Part shown: one piece after another, positions 44,214 to 52,782 of the stretch | How the letters are laid out: each line of letters begins with the position of its first letter | Numbering within the stretch: the stretch's first letter is position 1 | Assembly: GCF_013343005.1 (NCBI RefSeq) | Contig: NZ_CP054491.1 | Coordinates: 124,001 to 188,000, forward strand | DNA length: 64,000 nucleotides | DNA from: Candidatus Reidiella endopervernicosa | GTDB taxonomy: Bacteria; Pseudomonadota; Gammaproteobacteria; GCF-013343005 | Direction of reading: 5' to 3' | The notes under the pieces: model-generated | What the model was told of the DNA's origin: nothing | Seen by the model: only the letters and a program-made list of their open reading frames with translations | Databases searched by the model: none | Translations under genes and position numbers: made by a program

Positions 44214-47200
44214 TTACCCTTGCTGTTCTAATTCCTGCATCTGCTTTAGCAACTCATCTCGCAATTGATAGAGCTCTTCCAGCCTCGGAACCGGATCACC
44301 ACCTTGAGACTGAAGCTCAAGCAGATCCGCTGCCAACAGGTGAACCTGTCGATGCAGAGTGACAATGGCCTGGAAGCTGGACTGCGCAGCATAACGAGTC
44401 TGCCCACCCCTTCCAACCAATGGCCAAATCGGCACTGCTGATGATCCAGCGGCGGTGGATAGGCTCGTTCACCTTTGATGAATGCTTCGATCGCAACTAT
44501 CCAGGCACGATGCTCAACATGGGCAAATAGCAGTGGAAGATCCTCATGGCTAACAGGGTGTTGATCAGCCCACGTTGGATCAGGCCGCCAGCTACCGATC
44601 CAGTCCGGGATATCTTCGGCAGGCATGGGCCTGGCGATAGCGTACCCTGCCCCAGTTCACATCCGAGACGCAGCAGCATCTCGCCATGCTGAACAGTCTC
44701 CACACCCTCTGCAATGGCCTGACGTCTGAAGGCCGTGGCCAGCCCCATTACACCCTCCAGGATAGCCAGATCTTCCGGATCATCGAGCATGCCTCGCACG
44801 AAGCTCTGATCGATTTTGAGTTGATCGGCAGGTAACCGCTTAAAGTAGGTGAGTGACGAGTAACCGGTGCCAAAATCGTCAAGTGCAAAGCGTACGCCCA
44901 TATCCAGACAGGAGCGCATCAGATTGGAGACGTATTCAATATCTTCCAAGGCACTCGTCTCAAGCACCTCCAGCTCCAGATCACCAGGATCGATGGCTGG
45001 GTGGGCCTTCAGCAATTCGCTCAAGCGATTAACGAAATCTGCCTGCTGTAGCTGATAACCATCCACGTTCACGCTTACCGAGAGATTTAGATCGACCGAA
45101 CGCCATAATTCCATTTGCGTCAATGCGCTCTCAATCACCCATTCACCCAACTCTATCGCTAATTTGTGGCCCTCTATTACCGAGAGGAACTCAGCTGGCG
45201 GTAACAGTCCACGCTCTGGATGTTGCCATCGGATCAGCGCTTCGGCACCGATAATTTCACCGCTACGCATATTAACTTTGGGCTGGTAATAGAGGACAAA
45301 TTGCCCCGTCTCCAGTGCATGACTGATATGTTCCAGGCTTTCATGATGCCCCTTGCACTCTGGTCCTTCTCGGCATCGAAGATGTGAAAGCGGTTCTTAC
45401 CAGATAATTTTGCCTGGTACATAGCCTGATCCGCCTGTCGTAGCAGCTGATCCGCGTCGATATTATCCGCCTGGGGATAGAATGTTACACCGATACTGGC
45501 GGATGCTTGCAGCACGAGATCCCGCACATGCACCGGCTGTGCTACGGATGCCTGCATGCGTGCAAGCATGGGCACAACATCTTTTGTTTTGTTTAAATCG
45601 ATCAATACCGCGACAAATTCATCCCCAGACGTGCGATAGAGTCACCATCGCGCATGACCATCTTCATACGCGCGGCCAGCGCCACCAGAAACTGATCGCC
45701 GACATCGTGGCCGTGGCTGTCATTGATCTCCTTGAAACCGTCCAGATCGACATAGGCTACCGCAAGTTTCTTGTTTCGCCGCCGCATCTGGAAAATAGCC
45801 TGACGCAGTCGGTCAGCCAGCAGCACTCGGTTAGGCAGATTGGTCAGCGCGTCATAATGCGCAATGTACTCCAGCTGCTGTTGATGCTCTTTTGCGCCGT
45901 GATATCCGAGAAGAGGCCGACGTAGTGCTGGCTCTTACCATATGCATCGTGCACGACAGTAATAGTGAGCATCTCGGCATACACCGTGCCATCCTTGCGC
46001 TGATTCCAGACCTCTCCTGACCAGTAGCCCTTTTCGGTCAGTTCGCTCCACATCTCAGCGTAGAATTTCGGTGCCTGGCGACCAGAGCTGAGGATTCGCG
46101 GATCCTTCCCCATAACCTCATCGCGGCCATAGCCGGTGATCCGGGTGAACGCTTCGTTCACCTCAATATCACCGTTGCTATCGGTGATCATGATCCCTTC
46201 ACGACTATGCGAGAACACCTTGGCCGCGAGCTCCAGTCTCTCCGCGGTCTGCTTACGCTCGGTAACATCATGTCCGACACCGATGATCGAGATGACCTCA
46301 CCGTGCTCATCCAGGACGGCTCGATGCGACCAGGCCAGCCAACGCCAGTCATCACCGGTTTTCGAGCGCTGCTCCACATATGTGGTGAAGGGTGGCTGAT
46401 AAAGGGCTGACAATGCCTGGCGCACAACCTCCTGGTCTTCCTCGTGCACCATGGACAGCAGGGGCTGTAGATACAGCTCCTCCTCATGCTTGCCGAAGGT
46501 TTCGCAGTAGGCCGGATTGGCGAACAAAAGCGCCCCTCTGTATCAATCTTTATCACCATGTCACTCTGGTTTTCGACCAGAAGCCGGTAACGCGCCTCGC
46601 TCTCTTCCAGCGCCGAATAAGATGCGGCCAAATCACGTCCCATATGGTTCAGCGCCTCTTCAATAAGACCCCATTCATCCTCGCGATTGAGGTTAATGGG
46701 ACGATCCAACCCCTGCCCCATACTGGAGATAGCAGTGACGATCTTATTGAGTGGTGCATCAATATGACGACGTACGATGAATATGGTGGTAAGCCCCATA
46801 ATCCCGACAACCAACAAAGACAGGGCGATACCCCAGAGCCCGGTCTGGAGAATTAGCGCCTCTATCTCATCGCCCACCTCTTCCGCCCTGCTCTTGGCCT
46901 CCCTGTCGGCGCGTGCCATCTGGGCGAGCACGCGCTGCAGGCTGGCATCCAAAACACGTCGGTGCCCACCCTTATCGATCCACGCACGCTGCAGCGCTTT
47001 AACCAACTGACGATAACGATCGACATACTCTGCAAGCTGATGACCATGCAGAGTGACTTCAGGGAGGAGGCTGTAATCGTCTGCAGGCGCAGATAGAGGG
47101 CATCAAGCTCGTTCCCCACCGTGAGATCGCGGGCGTCGCTACCCAGCCCCAACGACGCCCCTCCTGCTCCGCCAACAACTTACCGATCAACAGCAGGCTC

Positions 47201-47753
47201 TCCCGATAACCCGTGATCAGGCTTAGAAGTTGGTCTACATAATTTGTGTCCCGGCCGGCGAGAGTCGCCTCAATCAACCAGGCGCTGATTAGATCTTCTA
47301 GCGCCGTCAGCTCGTTGTCTGCAAGGTCATCCACTACCTGGATTTCATCATTTGTGCGGTTAATTACAGAACAGCTCTCACATAGCGCACAAAGTGCGTC
47401 GTCAGCATATCTAGCGCGCGGCGCACCGTACCGTTCTGCGTATTGCTTGCGATCTTCCTTAACGCAGCCTCAATGCGCTGACTATCGCCCGCAAGCGTGT
47501 CGCGTTTGAGGTGAAACGTGTAATTGAACAGTTCAATCTCGGATGAGACCGCAGTCAGCGCCTTGATTCGGTCTGCATTGTCGACGACCTGATTAATCTG
47601 GGTCGTTGCGACCTCGGAGGCCAGGCGCTGTGTATCGAACAGGGCTACGCCGACCAGCGTTATTACCATGCCGAACGCTGCCAGTATCAGGAGTACCAAC
47701 AGCCATAACCGGGTACGGATACGTAGACGGCTATAGATGCTCATATTTTCCAC
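44214..47753 (-). pseudogene. Membrane-bound HAMP-PAS-PAS-GGDEF-EAL-CZB signalling protein, multiply frameshifted
   Basis: Joined across frames on the minus strand. The order is an N-terminal membrane helix (LWLLVLLILAAFGMVITLVG), a helical sensor region and a second helix with HAMP (SLLVVGIMGLTTIFIVRRHI). Two PAS domains follow (ESEARYRLLVENQSDMVIKI; MITDSNGDIEVNEAFTRITG). The GGDEF domain has VAYVDLDGFKEINDSHGHDVGD, but its GGDEF loop has lost four bases (RLG then DEF in another frame). The EAL domain has GAEALIRWQHPERGLLPP and FALDDFGTGYSSLTYFKRLP. A C-terminal zinc-binding CZB-type domain carries HVEHRAWIVAIEAF and CRFGHWLEG. At least seven frame changes make it non-functional. An intact version would turn over cyclic di-GMP. 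It is coupled to the binding-protein gene upstream. Confidence 0.85.
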
Positions 47754-48764
47754 ACACCAGGCTTACTGGTGCTCTTTATGCGGAGTGGTCCGTACCAGAT
47801 CCGTACCGCGCAGCACCATGGGGCGCGGGTGGATTCCGAGTTTTCAAGGGTAGTGACATTTATCAGCCGACGTCCCTGATAGTTACGGGTAACCGGCAGC
47901 TCGGCAAGCGGCGTTCCGCAGGGCGCGCAGCAAATATCGGCGGCAATCCTTCCCTGCTCCTGCCCCGTTTTGACGACGGCACTCAAGACCCCTCTTCGAC
48001 GTGGTAGCGATTGGCACCGATAGTCGGCCCTGGATAGAAGCTGGAAAAGCGGGAGATAATCTCTCGATTAGTCAGCGCACGCCCCTCTTCATCAACAACC
48101 CCTTCAAGACTATCCATGTAGACGGCTCCACAGCTCTGATCGGCCGATTCACCGATGCGCCGTAGCTCTTGAATGGAGTTGATCAGATAGAACTCCCCGA
48201 CCGGCACGATGTAGTTATCTCGTTCTGCTAACACCTGTTTCTGCAAGGCCTCTCCCGAGGGGCTGGCCTTCGCGATGAAGCAGACCTGTTCAAACTGCGG
48301 AACCAACTGTTTGAGAAAGGCGATAGACTCCCTAACGTGGCCACGCTCCAGGGTTCCTGAGATATGCCGGTTTGGATAACCATAGTCGCCGGCATCGGCA
48401 TTTACGCCACAAAAAGATCGGGGTATCAACCTTATCTTTTAGATAGGGGACCACCAGCATGGACTGCGCATTATCGTCCACGGTGATCACTCCATCGGGC
48501 TGGAGACGCTGATAAAGCTCATAGGCCTGGTGCGCCTTTTCCGGCCCCCGGCCAGATCAGCCTTGGTATCCATGTAGAAATAGGTGAGATCTGCGTGTTC
48601 ACCAAGAACACCTTCGATTCCCTCCTTTATCTCCTCGCACCAAGGATTGTGCTGCTCGTAACTCATCACCACCAGCACCTTGAAAGGCCCTGACCAGGCG
48701 GGATAGGAGCAAGCAGGCCAATGGCCAACAGAAGCGTGATTAAAGAGACATTCATAATTCGCAT
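47741..48764 (-). pseudogene. ABC-type substrate-binding protein (ABC_sub_bind family), frameshifted
   Basis: An ATG at 48764 starts a signal peptide (MNVSLITLLLAIGLLA). In other frames follow FKVLVVMSYEQHNPWCEEIK, EKAHQAYELYQRLQPDGVIT and VDDNAQSMLVVPYLKDKV, then FCGVNADAGDYGYPNRHISG, VCFIAKASPSGEALQKQV and EEGRALTNREIISRFSSFYP. The C-terminal GRIAADICCAPCGTPLAELP is near 47.9 kb. This matches the periplasmic ABC_sub_bind family, here without a transporter. Three to four single-base deletions (near 48705, 48545, 48415 and 47985) break it. Its end overlaps the start of the GGDEF-EAL gene, suggesting it was the sensory partner of that protein. Confidence 0.75.
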
Positions 48765-49094
48765 AGCACCACCTACACTGCAAGAAATTGAATCCCTTCA
48801 CCAATACAACTCATCTGCATCATAGCAAAAACAGTACGTTACAACCTGTTGTTGGCATCAATCACCCTCTGCCGCTTCAGCGATGCACCTCCACCCTATA
48901 ACGGTACCCCGCCAGAGTGATAAAAACGCAACAAACCGTTGTAATTGATGGTCATAAACAATGGCTAAGCACGCTAACTCCAACTCAATTGCAAATATCG
49001 ACTACCTGTCTATAACAGAGTATTTATTAACAAGTCACGCTGCCACAATCGTAAGCAATATCCAGTCTGGAATATCAACCAAGCTGCGATCTTC
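48765..49094. other. Intergenic region before repeat copy 4
   Basis: Holds the promoter region of the binding-protein gene. No gene is recognised. Confidence 0.35.
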
Positions 49095-49372
49095 GGGAGT
49101 CGCTTTTTGCGAAAGTTTGTTTTGGGCATCCAAGCCCAAGCAAACAGCAAAACTTAACGCGACCGTTTATGCCTTCGGCGCCCCGACGTCCTGCGTACGT
49201 TGCGTAATCACCTCTTCGCGGCTCTACACAACTCCCTCAGTGACTCTACGCCGACATAAAGCCGCTGCTGCATCTTCTCCGTCGTTCGCTCGCGCTCTCA
49301 ACTACGATTAGGCAGACGGCGTCGACTATCGGGGACTAACCGCCCTCACTTCGCTCTCCATGGCGGTCAGCG
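49095..49372 (+). repeat. Dispersed ~280-bp repeat, copy 4
   Basis: Begins GGGAGTCGCTTTTTGCG (missing the A of the others) and ends CCATGGCGGTCAGCG. It carries small indels (CGACGTCC for CGACCGTCC). It lies in an intergenic region and does not visibly break a gene. Confidence 0.9.
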
Positions 49373-49583
49373 CGGGAACCCTGCTTAGGGCGCATCCATT
49401 AACACGCGGCTGCGATACCCAATCAATCACATACCATTCCAATCAACAGCGGCTACACTCATGGAAAGAGGGGCAGCTAAATAACATCTGTCTTTCGAGG
49501 GTATTTGGCTGGTGAGGGGTTGTAGCTGTTGTTGACGATTCCGGCACCAATGTTCAACGACCAGATACACAAAGGAGAGAATC

Positions 49584-49853
49584 ATGAAGAAATTAGTCTC
49601 AACTGTTCTTGCCGTGTTCATGCTCTTTGGCTCTCTTCCACTCTACGCCTCAGAGGCTGGTCCGGCTCGAGTTAGCGGCACCCCAGTCACACAGGCTCAC
49701 TCCTTGAGTGGCAGCGAATTGAATGCTCTCGCATCTCTGGAGCGAAAATCTCAACAGGCAGCTACCGTTAAGGCCGGCGAGATGAGCGACGAGGCGATCA
49801 TCGCCGTTACGGTCATTTCTGTCGCCGTACTGGTGTACGCTATCTCCGAGTAG
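49584..49853 (+). CDS. Small secreted protein with C-terminal membrane helix, upstream of C39-like peptidase
   Basis: This 89-residue protein has a clear Sec signal peptide (MKKLVSTVLAVFMLFGSLPLYAS) and a polar mid-part with HSLSGSELNALASLERKSQQ. A C-terminal hydrophobic segment IIAVTVISVAVLVYAI ends in SE. It is preceded by an AGGAGAG ribosome-binding site and followed by a strong terminator before the peptidase gene. I do not recognise a family. Pseudomonads have an analogous pairing of a small membrane-anchored protein with a cysteine peptidase (PA2779/PA2778 type), so this may be the partner or substrate of the peptidase. That is inference from position only. Confidence 0.7.
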   Translation: MKKLVSTVLAVFMLFGSLPLYASEAGPARVSGTPVTQAHSLSGSELNALASLERKSQQAATVKAGEMSDEAIIAVTVISVAVLVYAISE

Positions 49854-49877
49854 CAACCATTAAATATCTTCACTATT

Positions 49878-49913
49878 GGCCATCGTGTTGAGTCTCACCA
49901 CGATGGCCTTTTT
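49878..49913 (+). terminator. Terminator/attenuator between the small protein and the peptidase
   Basis: GGCCATCGTG (49878-49887) pairs perfectly with CACGATGGCC (49899-49908), followed by five T. It sits 25 bp after the small gene, with the peptidase start 33 bp further on, so read-through would yield much more of the small protein than of the peptidase. Confidence 0.88.
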
Positions 49914-49945
49914 CAATCCACCACCCGAGTAGCCAGATCACGCCC

Positions 49946-50563
49946 ATGACATTACGCACACTCACCCTTCTGCCCATCGTGTTGATCAGCCTGCTAATGA
50001 GTGGCTGCATCAATATGCCAATCAAAGAGAGCGGCGAGAGGGCGTTTCAGAGAGAGTTTGCTGGCATGACCTATATAAAGGTCCCTTACGTCGAACAGGA
50101 GAGCGCTGTGACCTGCGGTGTTGCGGTCATCCAGAGTGTTTCCGACTTCTGGGGCTCGCCCATCGATCAGCAGACCATGCTTGTGGATCACCCCCCTGCC
50201 GACACCGAAGAGGGTTACTCTCTGGCCGAACTCAAGACAATTGTTAAGAGGCACTCGCGTTTGAAGGCCTTTGTACTGAAGGCAAATGGTAAGTTGCTCG
50301 AACAGATGATCGCCAAGGGTCGCCCGGTCATAGTCGCCGTGCGCACCGAACCGAGACCATATATCGAGACCCCTTTCGAATTTACGCGCAGGCTGGTGCG
50401 CATTCTCGCCGAGGAGTACAACCACTACATTGCGGTGATAGGGATTAACAAGGAGAAGGTCGCCATCATGGACCCTGCGCAGGGCTTCTACGTGATGAAG
50501 CGTGACCGATTTAACACCATCTGGGCCGAACTCGGTAACGCCTCACTATTGATTGCGAAGTAG
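49946..50563 (+). CDS. C39-like cysteine peptidase lipoprotein
   Basis: This 205-residue protein has a lipoprotein signal ending LLMSGC (Cys21). The peptidase domain has the C39 pattern: Gln51 and Cys57 in QESAVTCGVAVIQSV, His160 in YNHYIAVIGI and Asp176 in IMDPAQGF, giving a complete Cys-His-Asp set with oxyanion Gln. C39 peptidases cleave double-glycine-type leaders in bacteriocin exporters; lipoprotein versions without ABC domains process or degrade periplasmic peptides. No transporter is adjacent. It follows the small secreted protein after a terminator. Confidence 0.85.
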   Translation: MTLRTLTLLPIVLISLLMSGCINMPIKESGERAFQREFAGMTYIKVPYVEQESAVTCGVAVIQSVSDFWGSPIDQQTMLVDHPPADTEEGYSLAELKTIVKRHSRLKAFVLKANGKLLEQMIAKGRPVIVAVRTEPRPYIETPFEFTRRLVRILAEEYNHYIAVIGINKEKVAIMDPAQGFYVMKRDRFNTIWAELGNASLLIAK

Positions 50564-50706
50564 CGATAGTTTGATCTGCATATTATTAAAATCGCTCTAA
50601 TAATCAGCAAGAGACTCACTCTCAACGACTCAATAAATAATACCTATGCAATCACGCACTCGAATCAAAATATAATAATCGCCTTCGCCAGCAAATCGAC
50701 TGAAGA
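50564..50706. other. AT-rich gap
   Basis: Short AT-rich convergent intergenic sequence; no clear terminator hairpin was found. Confidence 0.3.
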
Positions 50707-51626: not shown

Positions 51627-51998
51627 ATGACTAGAAAACGCAAGCCATATAAGACCTACACCAAAGAGTTCAAATTAGAAGCGGTTCGCCTGATGGATGA
51701 GTCTGATAGACCAGCCACTGATATCGCTATGGAGCTTGGTATTCGGCGTAATCAACTCTACAAATGGAAAGAGCAGTTATCCAACAAAGGAAACAAAGCC
51801 TTTGAAGGTCCGGGAAGGCCAAAGAAGCAGGATCAAAGCGAAGTCACCACCCTTCGCCAAGAGAATGAACGGCTGAAAGAGGAGCTTGAAATCCTAAAAA
51901 AAGCCGCCGCGTACTTTGCGAGGATCTCAAGTGAAGTACGCCTTTATTCAATCGCTCAGCACAAAGCATCGAATTATACGGCTCTGTCATGCGCTTGA
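51627..51998 (+). CDS. IS3-family transposase OrfA
   Basis: This 123-residue frame has an N-terminal helix-turn-helix (KPYKTYTKEFKLEAVRLMDE, ATDIAMELGIRRNQLYKWKEQ) and a leucine-zipper-like region (VTTLRQENERLKEELEILKK). These are the DNA-binding and multimerisation parts of IS3 OrfA. It overlaps orfB by 83 bp; the AAAAAAG-type slippery run near 51896 suits a -1 frameshift producing OrfAB. Confidence 0.93.
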   Translation: MTRKRKPYKTYTKEFKLEAVRLMDESDRPATDIAMELGIRRNQLYKWKEQLSNKGNKAFEGPGRPKKQDQSEVTTLRQENERLKEELEILKKAAAYFARISSEVRLYSIAQHKASNYTALSCA

Positions 51999-52782
51999 TG
52001 TATCAGTGAATGGCTACTATTCATGGTGCAACCGACCTGAAAGCAAGCGCTCCATTGAGGATCGCCAGCTCACCGCTAAAATAAAGCTGTTTCACAAGGC
52101 AAGTCGGCAGATCTATGGATCGCCTCGCATCCATAAAGATCTGCAAGAGATGGGCGAACGTGTTGGTGTTAATCGTGTGGCCAGACTGATGAGGGCAAAT
52201 GACATTGCCTCTAAGATGGCTAGAAAGTTTGTCATAACGACTAACTCAAAGAACACGATGCAGCCCGCGCCAGATCTGCTTAAGCGAGAGTTTGATGTGG
52301 AAAGACCTGATAAAGCCTGGGTCTCTGACACCACCTTCATACCGACGCGGCAAGGGTGGCTTTATCTGGCCGTCATCATTGATCTCTATTCAAGGCATGT
52401 CATTGGCTGGGCTATGAGCAACCATAACAACACTCTACTGGTGAAGGACGCACTCACGATGGCTATCTGGCGAAGAGGCCGAGTAGAGTCTGTAGTTGTG
52501 CACTCAGACCACTATACTTCAGGTGACTACCAGAGGCTGTTGAAAGAGAGCTCATTACGCTGCAGCATGAGCCGTAAAGGTGAATGCCTGGATAATGCGG
52601 TGGCGGAAAGTTTCTTCGGTACACTTAAGACCGAACTGGTAGATTACGAAGATTACAAAACCAAACAGGAAGCAAAGCAGAGTCTGTTTGAATACATCGA
52701 AGTCTTTTATAACAGACGCAGGCGTCACTCGTACTTGGGGTATGTAAGTCCTGCAGAATACGAGGCAAAGTGTGCCTCTTAA
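51916..52782 (+). CDS. IS3-family transposase OrfB (DDE integrase)
   Basis: This 288-residue frame has HTH_21 (YGSPRIHKDLQEMGERVGVN) and an rve/DDE core. The catalytic acids are in KAWVSDTTFIPTRQGWLY (Asp), VVHSDHYTSGDYQRLL (Asp) and NAVAESFFGTLKTELV (Glu), and the C-terminus has FYNRRRRHSYLGYVSPAEYE. It is full length. It is normally made as an OrfAB fusion by frameshifting. Confidence 0.94.
   Translation: MRGSQVKYAFIQSLSTKHRIIRLCHALDVSVNGYYSWCNRPESKRSIEDRQLTAKIKLFHKASRQIYGSPRIHKDLQEMGERVGVNRVARLMRANDIASKMARKFVITTNSKNTMQPAPDLLKREFDVERPDKAWVSDTTFIPTRQGWLYLAVIIDLYSRHVIGWAMSNHNNTLLVKDALTMAIWRRGRVESVVVHSDHYTSGDYQRLLKESSLRCSMSRKGECLDNAVAESFFGTLKTELVDYEDYKTKQEAKQSLFEYIEVFYNRRRRHSYLGYVSPAEYEAKCAS

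Follow-up and report, generated by a model that had tools for sequence, protein, structure and literature searches.

A candidate periplasmic processing pair formed by a small Sec-exported protein and a C39 peptidase lipoprotein

Introduction

In the stretch of DNA analysed here (the window, 64 kb), a gene for a small exported protein is followed on the same strand by a gene for a C39-type cysteine peptidase lipoprotein. This arrangement raises the question of whether the small protein is a precursor cut by the peptidase encoded beside it, as a first-pass annotation of the same DNA had suggested. The layout of the locus, the peptidase, the small protein, the recurrence of the pair and its likeness to known C39 systems are considered in turn, followed by the processing route that they suggest and the explanations that compete with it.

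Gene Layout

The small gene (49584..49853, +) encodes a putative exported precursor of 89 aa that belongs to no known family and occupies the same place in 42 genomes, and the peptidase gene (49946..50563, +) encodes a protein of 205 aa. Both ORFs lie on the + strand where they had been annotated. A Shine-Dalgarno-like AAAGGAGAG (49571..49579, +) is situated 5-13 nt 5' of the ATG of the small gene; judged by eye, the Shine-Dalgarno sequence of this gene is good and that of the peptidase gene is weak. The first-pass annotation also placed a strong terminator between the genes, and a terminator-like hairpin with a T run (49878..49913, +) is indeed present. The hairpin at 49878-49908 contains ten outer pairs, is followed by five T, and reaches -20.9 kcal/mol (z -6.5; equalled in 0/200 shuffles), though a separate pattern scan did not list it. 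Nevertheless, the hairpin is not a general feature of the relatives, several of which have genes that abut or overlap. No Rfam match to an RNA element was obtained within 48800-50700.

On one side the pair is flanked by an IS3-type transposase and surface-polysaccharide genes, and on the other by a broken PAS/EAL gene. The transposase pair (HTH_Tnp_1, rve) occupies 51627-52782 (+), ~1 kb 3' of the peptidase gene. The PAS/EAL gene (44246-48804, -; EAL E 1e-57, PAS E 5e-24), which probably also encodes GGDEF, is split into many overlapping short frames and thus looks frameshifted or decayed.

The C39 Peptidase Lipoprotein

Judged from its sequence, the 205-aa protein has the fold and active site of a C39 peptidase. 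It matches PF03412 (peptidase C39) with E 2.3e-14 and 53.8 bits, against a Pfam gathering cut-off of 22, and its ORF ends with the C39 domain, lacking fused ABC transmembrane and ATPase domains. Among solved structures, its profile matches LahT, ComA and PCAT1, the best PDB match being 6mpz (the LahT double-glycine protease with leader; E 6.7e-11). The VIA-align neighbours of its AF2 model (pLDDT 85) agree: ComA (Z 18.3, 1.9 A over 133 residues) shares first place with PCAT1 and LahT, ahead of other C39-like and papain-like enzymes. Q51, C57, H160 and D176, which had been read as retained catalytic residues, align with the oxyanion Gln and the catalytic Cys, His and Asp of LahT and ComA, and their spacings of 6 and 16 equal those reported for LahT Gln21/Cys27/His101/Asp117. 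In a 20-row peptidase alignment, Cys21, Cys57 and His160 are found in 20/20 rows and Gln51 in 19/20. Position 176 is D in 3 rows, E in 12 and S in 5, thus Asp176 is no family constant.

A lipobox-like MSGC is located at Cys21, and the next residue is Ile in the window protein and Ala in 19/20 alignment rows. By the Lol +2 rule, Ile or Ala at this position predicts an outer-membrane address for the lipoprotein, from which a cut site within a few residues of the inner membrane would be hard to reach, and this counts against processing of the small protein.

In NCBIfam, the window peptidase passes no named model. Neither the PA2778 model NF033920 (150 bits needed) nor the FapD model NF058616 (330 bits needed) appears among its matches at E up to 1, and the nearest relative, L006, scores 19.8 bits against the NF033920 threshold of 150.

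The Small Protein and the Candidate Cleavage Site

The small protein carries a signal peptide in residues 1-22 (LYA|SE; 49584..49649, +), recognised by eye, and a C-terminal helix in residues 69-88, as first annotated. The helix is taken from a low-confidence model (pLDDT 66) containing a signal helix, a helix at 43-64, a break at 65-68 and the helix at 69-88. Searches against Pfam, NCBIfam, PADLOC and PHROGs gave no match to the small protein except one at chance level, and a profile search found a single copy in the window's genome. As a rough background, five ORFs of the window fit a loose signal-plus-tail rule, and GG, AG or GA is found nearby in 2/5, namely in the small gene and in a fragment of a seemingly larger membrane protein.

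Three features follow the signal peptide: a leader-like motif, LSGSEL (residues 41-46; 49704..49721, +); Ala64-Gly65 (49773..49778, +), the proposed P2-P1 of a cleavage site; and the C-terminal 24 residues, including the hydrophobic helix (49779..49850, +), which may be a mature peptide or a membrane stub. Gly65-Glu-Met-Ser coincides with the break between the two helices of the model. The same plan recurs in the relatives: a signal peptide, in most of them a [LF][ST]xx[DE][LMV] motif, Ala/Gly-Gly next, and hydrophobic residues at the C-terminus. For this comparison, near-copies were thinned by manual selection from the 42 genomes, giving a set of 28 proteins and a set of 19 window-type proteins. 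A script located the motif in 26/28 proteins, the two misses being L007a, where it lies beyond the searched stretch, and L056, where N replaces S. In 28/28 proteins, [AG]G is present with 21-26 residues behind it (mostly 23-24), L076 having a second such site at 28. The site Gly is invariant and P2 is solely G or A in 18/18 rows of one alignment, P4 is hydrophobic or aromatic in 18/19 (V, M or Y in relatives, with one Q), and Lys or Arg occurs in the last 12 residues of 0/19 proteins. In a position test, for which the length window and the six representatives were picked after the lengths had been seen, the site lies 22-25 residues from the end in 5/6 group representatives, a result reached by 0/20,000 shuffles. 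Between clades, the profile similarity of the small proteins is only weak and local (43-62% probability), which counts against a shared processing plan. This comparison nevertheless matches the AG site of the window type with that of the g400/g553 type, and it pairs LSGSELNAL of the window with a MTDAEIAQL-like stretch of PA2779.

C39 domains of exporters cut after a glycine-type motif and bind the leader helix through positions -4, -7 and -12 (PMC6363468). The same study gives GG, GA or GS as the classical cleavage motifs, L-12/E-8/L-7 for ComA substrates and Val-4 for the LahT leader (PMC6363468). The window protein also has Val at -4 relative to the proposed cut, which, together with this mode of recognition, suggests that the two genes form a processing pair. 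Yet its site reads AG, which is not one of the classical double-glycine precursor motifs, and its leader motif lies at about -25, farther from the site than the L-12/E-8/L-7 of ComA substrates.

Recurrence of the Pair

Window-like peptidases were found in 43 genomes, comprising the window's own, G299, G315, 14 of genus g400, and G986 with 25 of its relatives. A small gene lies directly upstream on the same strand in 42/43, each encoding a signal peptide and a C-terminal hydrophobic helix; the one remaining locus, L050 of g400, starts right at the edge of its contig. The first-pass annotation had left co-occurrence in other genomes to be checked, and the pairing is established at the level of gene order and sequence, as are the conserved motif and its spacing. 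In addition, the small gene of g400 (13 sequences) is under purifying selection, with a pooled dN/dS of 0.15-0.31 by segment, which together with the recurring pair points to more than chance.

The matches came from peptidase searches and from growing alignments, one of these searches matching 31/200 genomes. A first neighbour check recovered the small gene in 14/15 loci (13 of g400 and G986) and a second in 25/26 (L070 repeats G986), the 26th, L078, being settled by eye. At L079, where the script misassigned the peptidase frame, the small gene was accepted by position before the search match. Of these 31, G1352 (E 6.8e-9) gave no locus and was left out, and G738, G890, G892, G893 and G986 had already come up in an earlier search. 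Also excluded from the 43 were weak exporter, FapD-type, PA2778-type, Cys-less (L008, L009), orphan (L063) and partial matches. L063, a distant relative, encodes a C39 protein without a visible partner, which speaks against a processing pair.

The pair is patchy, as 145/146 genomes around G315 are without a match at E 1e-8. Close relatives of the window's genome are missing from the collection, the 93 other genomes searched all belonging to other families. A scan of genome contigs with the window peptidase alone gave no match, and one with the alignment returned L014 (the same protein as L006) and a weak Lachnospiraceae match. Plasmid records gave seven weak matches, including ABC exporters, one C39 peptidase and unannotated places, and led to L095 (Cupriavidus); with two relatives as queries, 0 and 5 records were found.

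Small genes occur in tandem in G315 and at L090 (n=2). At L007 (806-1395) and L090 (691-1486), one peptidase is preceded by two tandem small proteins with GG/AG tails. At L008 and L009 (1327-1932, -), the C39-like lipoproteins lack the catalytic Cys and His and are still preceded by a C-terminal-helix protein, and the GG before the helix is kept in the L008 neighbour and lost in the L009 neighbour.

Relation to Known C39 Systems

Among the closest parallels is the PA2778/PA2779 pair (NF033920/NF033919; PA2779 is Pfam DUF6627), in which a lipoprotein C39 peptidase is likewise encoded downstream of a signal-peptide protein, and PA2779 has PAG[GA] just before a hydrophobic C-terminal helix. The PA2779 gene is upstream, with an NF033919 match, in 9/9 PA2778-type loci chosen by hit range and protein length. 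However, PA2778 is longer, has TPR-like matches in its C-terminal part and carries S at the place of Asp176, and PA2779 (about 125-135 aa) has a FPF-type tail and a larger ectodomain. The window small protein gave no match to NF033919 (40 bits needed), and neither did the window's genome, where the result is weak because the same search was equally silent in 14 control genomes. In a tree of the peptidases, window-like and PA2778 types fall on one side and FapD-like and ABC types on the other (97/99). This tree has several weak inner branches and joins long ones, and it is not taken to unite the window-like rows in one clade. No study treating the PA2778/PA2779 pair as a processing system was found in the open-licence papers searched, none of which was found to name DUF6627, PF20332, NF033919 or NF033920. 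One PA2779 family gene appears in a tabulation of P. stutzeri DSM4166 promoters with strong constitutive activity (PMC10155442), which suggests that its product may be abundant in that strain.

FapD of the Pseudomonas Fap amyloid system and FilB are Sec-exported periplasmic C39 peptidases, as the window peptidase is predicted to be. In FapD, a C39 enzyme of the periplasm, the Cys is required for FapC secretion, and the target of the enzyme was described in the same study as unclear (PMC5557850). FapD differs in being part of a fibre-export operon, and the FapD-like loci examined have no tail-helix partner alongside, unlike the window pair. FapD-like periplasmic C39 peptidases at L002, L004, L011, L012 and L033 (FapD-model match checked in L002) adjoin a double-glycine protein in 5/5 loci by eye. 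The stretches are LRGGF, LRGGF, IRGGI, MRGGF and ARGGF, each after a leader-like run, and a signal peptide is visible in most of these neighbours, which are candidate substrates.

The C39 domains of PCAT/AMS exporters (ComA, LahT, PCAT1) share with the window peptidase the fold, the active-site residues and their spacing, and a glycine-type site after a leader. These domains form part of an ABC exporter and lie in the cytosol, whereas the window peptidase stands alone, as a lipoprotein whose partner is exported by Sec. By analogy, the window pair is best read as the periplasmic equivalent of the peptidase domains that PCAT exporters carry in the cytosol.

Proposed Processing and Alternative Explanations

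We consider it probable that the small protein is exported by Sec as a double-glycine-like precursor and that the C39 lipoprotein encoded with it carries out its maturation outside the inner membrane. The periplasmic processing pair that the first-pass annotation had ventured gains support from the 42/43 co-occurrence and from [AG]G directly before the hydrophobic tail; the cleavage itself we infer from these sequence features, and with it the site, the acting fragment and the role. First, the small protein would be exported by Sec and lose its signal peptide, its hydrophobic C-terminus keeping it in or at the inner membrane. The periplasm-facing C39 lipoprotein would then recognise the leader-like stretch LSGSEL...V-x-A-G and cut after Ala64-Gly65, yielding a soluble leader or ectodomain of ~43 residues and a hydrophobic, non-basic peptide of 24 residues. 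By analogy with C39 exporters, we take the C-terminal piece to be the product and the N-terminal one to be its leader. Given its length, conservation and lack of basic residues, the 24-residue tail is more likely a membrane-active or self-assembling envelope peptide than a mere anchor.

The peptidase might instead act as a sheddase, releasing an active N-terminal ectodomain from a tail that is a mere membrane anchor stub. We regard this as unlikely, although the ectodomain is conserved as well, with invariant F, Y-G-L and Q..GY positions, and PA2779 has an even larger one. In g400, pooled dN/dS is 0.24 in the signal, 0.20 in the ectodomain, 0.31 in the seven-codon linker and 0.145 in the tail, so the tail is the most constrained segment, and its invariant Gly and near-fixed length go beyond the needs of an anchor; basic residues at its end occur in 0/19 proteins.

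Less probable still is that the small protein is a membrane tether, chaperone or inhibitor of the peptidase, not its substrate. Strict pairing would appear identical under this explanation, and the GG-tail neighbour at L008 stands beside a C39-like protein without Cys and His; the tail-helix neighbours kept at L008 and L009 despite this loss count against processing. Where the active site is intact, however, the pairs have an invariant P1 Gly and a P2 G or A at a C39-type site, as expected of a substrate.

A sortase-like role, with the peptidase as a transpeptidase moving the ectodomain from the tail onto another molecule, is very improbable. A signal peptide followed by a Gly motif and a C-terminal hydrophobic helix does resemble the GlyGly-CTERM/rhombosortase system (PMC3237569), but there basic residues follow the helix, a cluster absent here (0/19), and the enzyme there is a rhomboid, in contrast to the C39 cysteine peptidase of the window. 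Moreover, only one or two candidate substrates adjoin the enzyme, with a single genome copy by profile. We know of no C39 transpeptidase.

A standard bacteriocin system with an ABC exporter was rejected, as already in the first-pass annotation, since no exporter is found among the scanned neighbours of the pair, the small protein has a signal peptide and the peptidase is unfused; a defence or phage gene was rejected since there is no PADLOC match and no phage record, and the PHROGs matches of the peptidase are weak only.

Implications

Maturation of the small protein by its neighbouring lipoprotein may also be one case of a broad, hardly described class, in which Sec-exported double-glycine-like precursors are paired with dedicated C39 lipoproteins that mature them outside the inner membrane. 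The chances of this wider proposal are slightly below even. It would include at least three partner families, namely the window type, the g400/g553 type (from another class) and PA2779, the near-uniform, non-basic hydrophobic peptides of 24 residues being claimed for the first two. Processing as proposed here would supply a concrete candidate cleavage site for the catalogued PA2778/PA2779 pair of Pseudomonas. If true, the reach of glycine-motif processing, known from cytosolic exporter domains and also suspected in the case of FapD, would be extended to a self-contained periplasmic unit of two genes that occurs in at least two classes of a single phylum.
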